Program-made: the position numbers and the translations under genes
Virus record (IMG/VR): IMGVR_UViG_3300030090_002668
Span: 1-29,660 of that record
Strand: one strand, 5' to 3'
DNA length: 29,660 nucleotides
Source: a virus
Notes under the pieces: model-generated
Database searches by the model: none
What the model was told of the DNA's origin: nothing
Seen by the model: only the letters and a program-made list of their open reading frames with translations
Part shown: positions 27,879 through 28,829 of the stretch, one piece after another
How positions within the stretch are numbered: position 1 is the stretch's first letter
How the letters are laid out: the number at the start of each line of letters is the position of its first letter

Positions 27879-27907
27879 ATTATAGCCTTGTCTTAATTGA
27901 CTGTCAA
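27879..27907 (-). promoter_or_regulatory. Sigma-70-type promoter for the minus-strand operon
   Basis: On the minus strand: TTGACA (27907-27902), 17-base spacer, TATAAT (27884-27879), both hexamers perfect. The -35 box overlaps the methyltransferase stop codon. Expected start near 27872, giving a leader of roughly 90-140 bases that contains the AT-rich repeats. It would drive the small membrane protein, SSB-like and downstream genes. Confidence 0.88.
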
Positions 27908-28821
27908 GCAGAAAAATTATCTGTTAAAATTCTCCATGCTGTTGCAGCCACTGCTGGAACCTGTCCGTTTCCAATGGCCTTAATTCTGTCCACCCGACGG
28001 GCCAGCCCATGAGCCATTCTACCCACGCTGGGTTCAGATGCCCACCAACTTGGCCTGGAAGATCCTTGCCCTTCTGAAAGCCCCCTGACGTTCCCTTCCA
28101 GTCTCGCGACTGAGGAGTGCGGTATTTCACCGCATTTGGCAACTGGTCCATCCTGCTTTTGCCGTCCTTGCGTGTCAGACCCTCTGGCGAGTTTGTCCCC
28201 TTGTAGTCTCTGCGAGTCGGGGTCGGCCACATCTGGTCCCAACCTTTCCTGCCCTTGGCTACATCGCTCAGACAATCCCCGTATCCTTCGCTCGTTGACC
28301 CTGGCTCCTGCGCTCTGGGAGTTGGAGCGAGCTTTGGCAAGTACCCACATCCTGTTTCTCTTGTGGGGCGCGCCGACGTGCCAAGCTCCCAGCACACACC
28401 ATCTTGCATCATACCCCAACTCGGACAAGTCCCCGAGGACAACGTCAAGCCCGCGACCCCGCAGTAACGGGGAGTTTTCCGCGAAGATAAATTGAGGCCG
28501 TATTTCGCGAGCAATTCGTGCATATTCTTTCCATAGTCCAGAACGCTTTCCTCCAATACCGGTTCCTTTTCCCGCTGCACTAATGTCCTGGCAGGGAAAC
28601 CCTCCGCAAATAACATCAACTGCTCCCCTCCAAGGGGTTCCGTCGAAGGTGGTGATGTCGTCCCAGATGGGAAACTTGGGCAACACTCCGTCTCGTTGGC
28701 GCTGGAGCAAAATCTGTCTTGGGTACTCTTCAATTTCAACAGCACAGACTGTGGTATGTCCGAGCAGCTGTCCACCGAGGATACCTCCCCCTGCTCCTGC
28801 AAAAAGGTGTAACTCATTCAT
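27904..28821 (-). CDS. dcm: C5-cytosine DNA methyltransferase (Dcm type)
   Basis: A 305-aa protein with the C5-MTase motifs: I FAGAGGGILGG (7-17), II VCAVEIEEY (25-33), IV GGFPCQDIS with catalytic C77, VI AENSPLL (ENS where ENV is usual, 114-120), VIII APHKRNRMWVLA (151-162, the Q/H-x-R-x-R block), X RIKAIGNGQVP (near 279-289). It transfers methyl from SAM to C5 of cytosine in DNA. Residues 165-255, the target-recognition region, are low-complexity and basic (NSQSAGARVNERRIRGLSE). It has no restriction partner, so protection of phage DNA is likely. Shine-Dalgarno AAAGG. The region looks richer in G+C than its neighbours. A second ORF lies inside it. Confidence 0.92.
   Translation of the reverse strand: MNELHLFAGAGGGILGGQLLGHTTVCAVEIEEYPRQILLQRQRDGVLPKFPIWDDITTFDGTPWRGAVDVICGGFPCQDISAAGKGTGIGGKRSGLWKEYARIAREIRPQFIFAENSPLLRGRGLDVVLGDLSELGYDARWCVLGAWHVGAPHKRNRMWVLAKARSNSQSAGARVNERRIRGLSERCSQGQERLGPDVADPDSQRLQGDKLARGSDTQGRQKQDGPVAKCGEIPHSSVARLEGNVRGLSEGQGSSRPSWWASEPSVGRMAHGLARRVDRIKAIGNGQVPAVAATAWRILTDNFSA
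27924..28817 (-). CDS. Nested gene in the +1 frame of the methyltransferase
   Basis: A 297-aa frame starting at an ATG four bases after the methyltransferase ATG, using the same AAAGG, and ending 20 bases before its stop. The product looks like a real protein: Ser/Cys-rich start (EVSSVDSCSDIPQSVLLKL), LMLFAEGFPARTLVQREKE, SRKTPRYCGVAGLTLSSGTC, two 'W/Y-x-T-P' repeats (MWPTPTRRDYKG; KYRTPQSRDWKG) and LNPAWVEWLMGWPVGWTEL at the end. I recall many phage proteins ending in 'LNPxWVEWLMG(W/F)PxGWTxL' with WPTP repeats, annotated hypothetical or as methyltransferase-associated. Its function is unknown. It could also be a conserved shadow of the methyltransferase frame. Confidence 0.5.
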   Translation of the reverse strand: MSYTFLQEQGEVSSVDSCSDIPQSVLLKLKSTQDRFCSSANETECCPSFPSGTTSPPSTEPLGGEQLMLFAEGFPARTLVQREKEPVLEESVLDYGKNMHELLAKYGLNLSSRKTPRYCGVAGLTLSSGTCPSWGMMQDGVCWELGTSARPTRETGCGYLPKLAPTPRAQEPGSTSEGYGDCLSDVAKGRKGWDQMWPTPTRRDYKGTNSPEGLTRKDGKSRMDQLPNAVKYRTPQSRDWKGTSGGFQKGKDLPGQVGGHLNPAWVEWLMGWPVGWTELRPLETDRFQQWLQQHGEF

Positions 28822-28829
28822 TGCCTTTC

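Follow-up and report, generated by a model that had tools for sequence, protein, structure and literature searches.

Near-completely overlapping phage genes that probably encode both subunits of a C5-cytosine DNA methyltransferase

Judged from its two reading frames and their relatives, one stretch of viral DNA very probably encodes both subunits of a single heterodimeric C5-cytosine DNA methyltransferase of the M.EcoHK31I kind. The stretch lies in an IMG/VR record that was analysed over its whole length of 29,660 bases (the window), and whose major head protein, tail proteins and Dda-like helicase give it a tailed-phage character. Two same-strand open reading frames of 305 and 297 codons, here called alpha and beta, are nested at a +1 offset, with ATGs 4 nt apart (ATGAATGAG) and respective stops 20 nt apart. 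An earlier sequence-only reading had pointed out this arrangement, and its coordinates, starts, stops and single AAAGG were all as described there. The locus is laid out as follows.

27904-28821, minus strand: alpha, a C5-cytosine methyltransferase with motifs I-VIII and X (305 aa; PF00145 and phrog_363)
27924-28817, minus strand: beta, the nested ORF in frame +1, with recognition-type repeats and motif IX (297 aa; phrog_1008)
28815-28821, minus strand: overlapping starts ATGAATG (alpha ATG 28819-28821, beta ATG 28815-28817)
28824-28828, minus strand: AAAGG, candidate ribosome-binding site common to both, 2 nt 5' of the alpha ATG and 6 nt 5' of the beta ATG

Two motif overlaps noted previously were found again in the sequence: GGFPCQDIS of alpha (motif IV) overlies AEGFPARTL of beta, and IKAIGNGQVP of alpha (motif X) overlies ELRPLETD of beta. 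The higher G+C content of the methyltransferase gene was likewise reproduced, at 55% compared to 45% for the whole window and 46% for each flank.

The assignment of alpha is supported by matches to PF00145 over residues 3-172 (Pfam, E 2.6e-34), to phrog_363 over residues 1-299 and to M.HhaI chains (3.8e-22). C5-cytosine methyltransferase motifs I, IV (PCQ), VI (EN) and VIII are present in its catalytic domain, in columns that are invariant in alignment A2. The following alpha features are used below.

28771-28806, minus strand: motif I, LFAGAGGGILGG, residues 6-17 (alignment A2, M.HhaI match)
28579-28605, minus strand: motif IV, GGFPCQDIS, with the catalytic Cys, residues 73-81 (alignment A2, M.HhaI match)
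28336-28365, minus strand: motif VIII, HKRNRMWVLA, residues 153-162 (alignment A2, M.HhaI match)
28036-28326, minus strand: VIII-X segment, a near-neutral, predicted disordered linker, residues 166-262 (dNN/dSN, pLDDT)
27955-27984, minus strand: motif X, IKAIGNGQVP, residues 280-289 (GNGQ invariant in A2)

Motif IX, which would lie between motifs VIII and X, is not recognisable in the alpha frame and is found in the +1 frame instead. Between these motifs alpha is variable across relatives in alignment A2, and a single-chain AlphaFold model is confident over about residues 1-167, with pLDDT below 50 over residues 168-292. The sequence-only reading had remarked on an odd, low-complexity target-recognition region here and had suggested the overlap as its cause. 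Near-neutral evolution as a linker, together with the low pLDDT, accounts for the low complexity of this segment.

The nested protein matched phrog_1008 (E 1.5e-23), which places it in that family, and phrog_26627 (7.3e-16), and its C-terminus matched three families of function not assigned (phrog_26627, phrog_35493 and phrog_27243). These four families correspond to the conserved C-terminus of phage proteins named in the sequence-only reading, which is real. A Pfam search returned no domain in beta, and profile searches of the PDB returned no relevant solved relative. Modelled alone by AlphaFold, beta gave a low-confidence structure (mean pLDDT 46), which counts for the two-subunit reading but is weak evidence given about 20 aligned sequences. 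Its recognisable elements are the following.

28389-28439, minus strand: core element SSGTCPSWGMMQDGVCW, near the start of the conserved core, residues 127-143 (conservation; also in separate beta-type genes)
28197-28229, minus strand: recognition-type repeat 1, WPTPTRRDYKG, residues 197-207 (similar repeats in single-chain methyltransferases)
28092-28121, minus strand: repeat 2, RTPQSRDWKG, residues 233-242 (nested-frame conservation)
27990-28037, minus strand: motif IX, LNPAWVEWLMGWPVGW, residues 261-276 (hhalign to single-chain methyltransferases, probability 93%, E 2.9e-7)

The repeats follow the pattern WPTPxxRDxKG and motif IX the pattern LNPxWVEWLMGWPxGW. The beta motif LNPAWVEWLMGW has the same spacing as motif IX of E. 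coli Dcm, RLTPRECARLMGF, and both precede motif X; this likeness to Dcm rests on spacing, and in hhalign the single-chain phage enzymes matched Dcm over their N-terminal part only.

Relatives outside the full overlap, where the sequence-only reading had suggested looking for further copies of the nested protein, comprise genes for separate subunits as well as the C-terminal halves of methyltransferases made as one chain. In four such single-chain enzymes, DLane gp65, Raleigh gp38, Neville gp75 and Inspectinfecti gp5, PF00145 matches the N-terminal end and phrog_1008 the C-terminal end. LPTPxASD-type repeats occur in the DLane and Inspectinfecti enzymes, and the last elements of the single-chain phage enzymes are an EWMMG motif and, after it, GNxV. 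Using hhalign, alpha aligned to the N-terminal part of these enzymes (E 1.5e-36); beta matched them at motif IX (E 2.9e-7) and, over 119 columns, the separate beta-type subunits (E 8.7e-15). Such separate genes include RedFox gp43, adjacent to gp42 without overlap, Zaka gp90, which overlaps gp91 by 179 nt, and Jinkies gp3. At four further loci (L118, L125, L173 and L241), alpha terminates past motif VIII, and motifs IX and X follow one another in the beta ORF.

Based on the single-chain homology, the separate beta genes, the IX-X intermediates and the Dcm-like spacing, we infer that beta consists of a recognition region plus motif IX. The sequence shows the motif order to be split, with I-VIII and X in alpha and the conserved part that normally lies between VIII and X in beta, and the position of the beta repeats suggests a role in target recognition. 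Since beta carries a conserved motif IX that is absent from alpha, beta is likelier to be an obligatory subunit than an accessory, and is most likely the missing half of the enzyme. The previous suggestion of an "accessory or specificity protein" came close as regards specificity, while "accessory" is probably too weak a term for a chain with a motif that alpha lacks. Long viral overlaps often reflect the overprinting of unrelated accessory proteins, and beta, having no Pfam domain, could in principle be an independent protein of this sort (for example anti-restriction or regulatory) that stands outside the enzyme. We regard this as improbable, given that single-chain C5 methyltransferases have a C-terminal half homologous to the conserved beta core, that beta provides a motif absent from alpha, and that it accompanies alpha in nearly all loci examined.

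Consistent with beta being a real gene, the nested frame is open far beyond chance. The null was generated by shuffling synonymous codons, which left each alpha protein and its codon usage unchanged. For this gene 6.0 nested-frame stops were expected, and the frame was open in none of 200 shuffles. Relatives were gathered from IMG/VR, phage GenBank records and prokaryotic genomes. Among 97 non-redundant viral relatives, part of which had been fetched with beta as query and are to that extent biased toward open frames, we counted 13 nested-frame stops versus 517 expected, all of them at the natural end of beta, and 86 fully open nested frames versus 0.23 expected. Viral loci fetched with alpha as query showed the same stop pattern. 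In the 57 prokaryotic relatives, 13 stops were seen versus 240 expected, and 50 frames were open versus 0.95 expected. The near absence of stops in homologues, on which the sequence-only reading had staked its proposal, therefore extends to both sets. The +2 control frame of the viral relatives contained 1600 stops versus 1379 expected and was thus without depletion. Divided by region, the viral nested frames had no stops in codons 1-30 (48 expected), 31-60 (20), 61-100 (67) and 101-160 (170), nor in the recognition region (91), amounting to 0 versus about 396 over these parts of the 97 loci. Beta lay at +1 relative to alpha in 90 of 91 phage and prokaryote loci; at L146 and L156 it had been missed by BLAST, yet was present at +1 on inspection.

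Selection on the two frames was estimated by an OLGenie-like count over 62 independent pairs, with each sequence used once. Along the gene, dNN/dNS of beta was 0.66 (0.59-0.74), 0.48 (0.43-0.54), 0.42 (0.32-0.53) and 0.33 (0.27-0.38), compared to about 1.2-1.45 (1.21-1.45) for the equivalent measure in the +2 control frame. The corresponding dNN/dSN values of alpha were 0.13, 0.20, 0.86 (0.77-0.94) and 0.47, with 0.86 belonging to the segment between motifs VIII and X. Constraint on alpha is therefore strong at the motifs and almost absent in the VIII-X interval, where beta has its repeats, and beta is only mildly constrained (0.66) up to about residue 115. This provides a built-in control, in that the alpha frame is nearly free where alpha is a linker and beta bears the constraint. 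In the beta core element, nested-frame conservation was 3.72 versus 1.18 in the shuffle null, and that of the +2 frame 1.75 versus 0.64; because relatedness raises the +2 control as well, conservation z-scores were not used alone. Per-frame dN/dS and synonymous-site constraint, proposed earlier as checks, gave constrained synonymous sites in the methyltransferase and a dN/dS below 1 in the nested frame, indicating that purifying selection acts on both frames.

The stop depletion and purifying selection go beyond what the alpha frame imposes and, together with the phrog_1008 and phrog_26627 matches, form the basis for treating beta as a real gene. The gene is richer in G+C than its surroundings, which favours long chance ORFs and speaks for a nested frame left open merely by methyltransferase composition and codon usage. 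We give this practically no weight, since none of the 200 synonymous shuffles left the frame open, stops are depleted about 40-fold in relatives and not in the +2 frame, and dN/dS is below 1 in the +1 frame only. A composition artefact is ruled out by the codon shuffles and the +2-frame controls.

Conservation of the beta start was also evident. The beta ATG exists because the alpha Asn2 codon is AAT, and AAT is used in 151 of the 153 genes with Asn2; elsewhere in the same genes AAC outnumbers AAT as Asn codon, by 580:388 in the viral set and 306:176 in the genome set. All 21 genes without ATG, GTG or TTG at alpha codon 1 retain the beta ATG, preceded in 15 of them by a Shine-Dalgarno match at a distance of 5-8 nt. 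Among relatives, the commonest Shine-Dalgarno spacing is 8 nt from the beta ATG (56/134), equivalent to 4 nt before the alpha start. These data bear on whether the active enzyme could be one frameshifted chain, in which programmed ribosomal frameshifting fuses the beta recognition region to alpha. With a +1 shift past motif VIII, the motifs would come in the order of the single-chain enzymes (I-VIII, TRD, IX), and in L118, L125, L173 and L241 motif X would be gained as well. However, beta retains its own start and Shine-Dalgarno spacing, its first 100 codons are open (0 stops versus about 136 expected), and at the window locus motif X would be lost unless a second alpha chain provided it, making this a very improbable account.

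More distant relatives, namely K1ind2, the Paenibacillus phages and ShroomBoi, have a later beta ORF start, which makes the N-terminal part of beta an extension of variable length; the conserved beta core begins near residue 115. It is nevertheless quite possible, and we put this forward tentatively, that the full-length 297-residue beta functions, such that about 97% of the DNA is under selection for two full-size subunits at once. The N-terminal half of beta, overprinted on the first alpha motifs, would then have its own job in assembly or DNA binding, and few long same-strand gene overlaps in phages and prophages would be as widespread as this layout.

In the two-subunit enzyme that we favour, ribosomes served by one Shine-Dalgarno site would start at either of the two ATGs, 4 nt apart, and make both chains from one message. 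Beta would dock on alpha and supply the DNA-reading small domain, restoring the order I-VIII, TRD, IX, X, and the alpha VIII-X segment would be a mere linker tethering motif X to the large domain. The substrate of the alpha-beta enzyme would be phage DNA, whose methylation would probably serve as protection from host restriction.

Two-chain C5 methyltransferases have precedents. The smaller gene of M.EcoHK31I (about 176 aa) likewise lies within the larger one in another frame. M.EcoHK31I (YGGCCR) has motifs I-VIII and X in its larger chain and IX in the smaller (PMC3404938), the same motif layout as alpha and beta. It differs in that here beta has 297 aa, the overlap with alpha is near complete and the starts are 4 nt apart. 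In addition, its predicted TRD was assigned to the larger subunit (PMC3404938), whereas the recognition-type repeats here lie in beta, and this counts against a heterodimer with its TRD in beta. M.AquI (CYCGRG) is likewise one C5 methyltransferase formed from two chains, split as I-VIII and IX-X (PMC3404938). This division is common to Zaka gp91/gp90, RedFox gp42/gp43, L118, L125, L173 and L241; the window locus, unlike M.AquI, keeps motif X in alpha and has a near-complete overlap. Single-chain phage C5 methyltransferases (phrog_116 or phrog_363 with phrog_1008, such as Mycobacterium phage DLane gp65) share the motifs, motif IX and similar recognition-type repeats, all encoded by a single reading frame as one polypeptide. 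Phage ShiLan also has a second protein read out of frame within a methylase gene (PMC11855218), but there it is an HNH homing endonuclease insertion, in contrast to what is probably the enzyme's own other half at the window locus. Given M.EcoHK31I and M.AquI, the two-chain mechanism is not new in kind. In the open-licence literature on overlapping or nested methyltransferase genes, we found no report of this alpha/beta family, nor of its near-complete overlap, shared start region, breadth or quantitative dual selection.

The alpha/beta arrangement recurs across many phages and bacteria, with beta usually unannotated. The overlap occurs in phages and prophages and across several phyla, one archaeal MAG among them. 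As an instance of dual coding it is unusual in its length and taxonomic breadth and can be interpreted mechanistically. Close relatives of the enterobacterial copy used as query occur in 4 of 5,426 complete E. coli genomes, and the RefSeq annotation of E. coli PT62, whose prophage copy lies at L268:1501-2238, shows alpha only. Many phage and prophage cytosine methyltransferases annotated as complete may thus be half enzymes, the other half residing in the same DNA and usually being missed. If alpha were cloned in codon-optimised form, beta would be lost unnoticed; this could account for clones without activity and for remarks such as "may be inactive" for phiBT1 gp9.1.

Several loci merit separate mention. 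In Streptomyces phage phiBT1 (L256:1026-2073), gp9.1, a methylase by annotation with the remark "may be inactive", is the alpha half only; positions 1144-2073 hold an unannotated +1 ORF with recognition repeats, motif IX and motif X. In Mycobacterium phage Llama (L169:975-1891), a one-base shift near residue 124 affects the alpha frame as well as the beta frame, so that gp74 and gp75 are pieces of the two frames, and several related phages have the same split, which could reflect either a degenerate gene or a frameshift. A single TGA interrupts alpha in L021, L126, L208 and L197, in the first two at the same conserved Arg (EI*PR and EV*PR); in L195, L203 and L124 the stop is a TAA or TAG and lies past motif VIII. 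The locus L110:2500-4084 is a very long dual-coding relative, with an alpha frame of 528 and a nested frame of 508 codons, both open. In Gordonia phage Inspectinfecti (L258:626-1081), an endonuclease gene is annotated within the methyltransferase gene and resembles the out-of-frame HNH insertion described in PMC11855218. Finally, L144:2389-4105 carries two methyltransferase-like ORFs in tandem on one contig.
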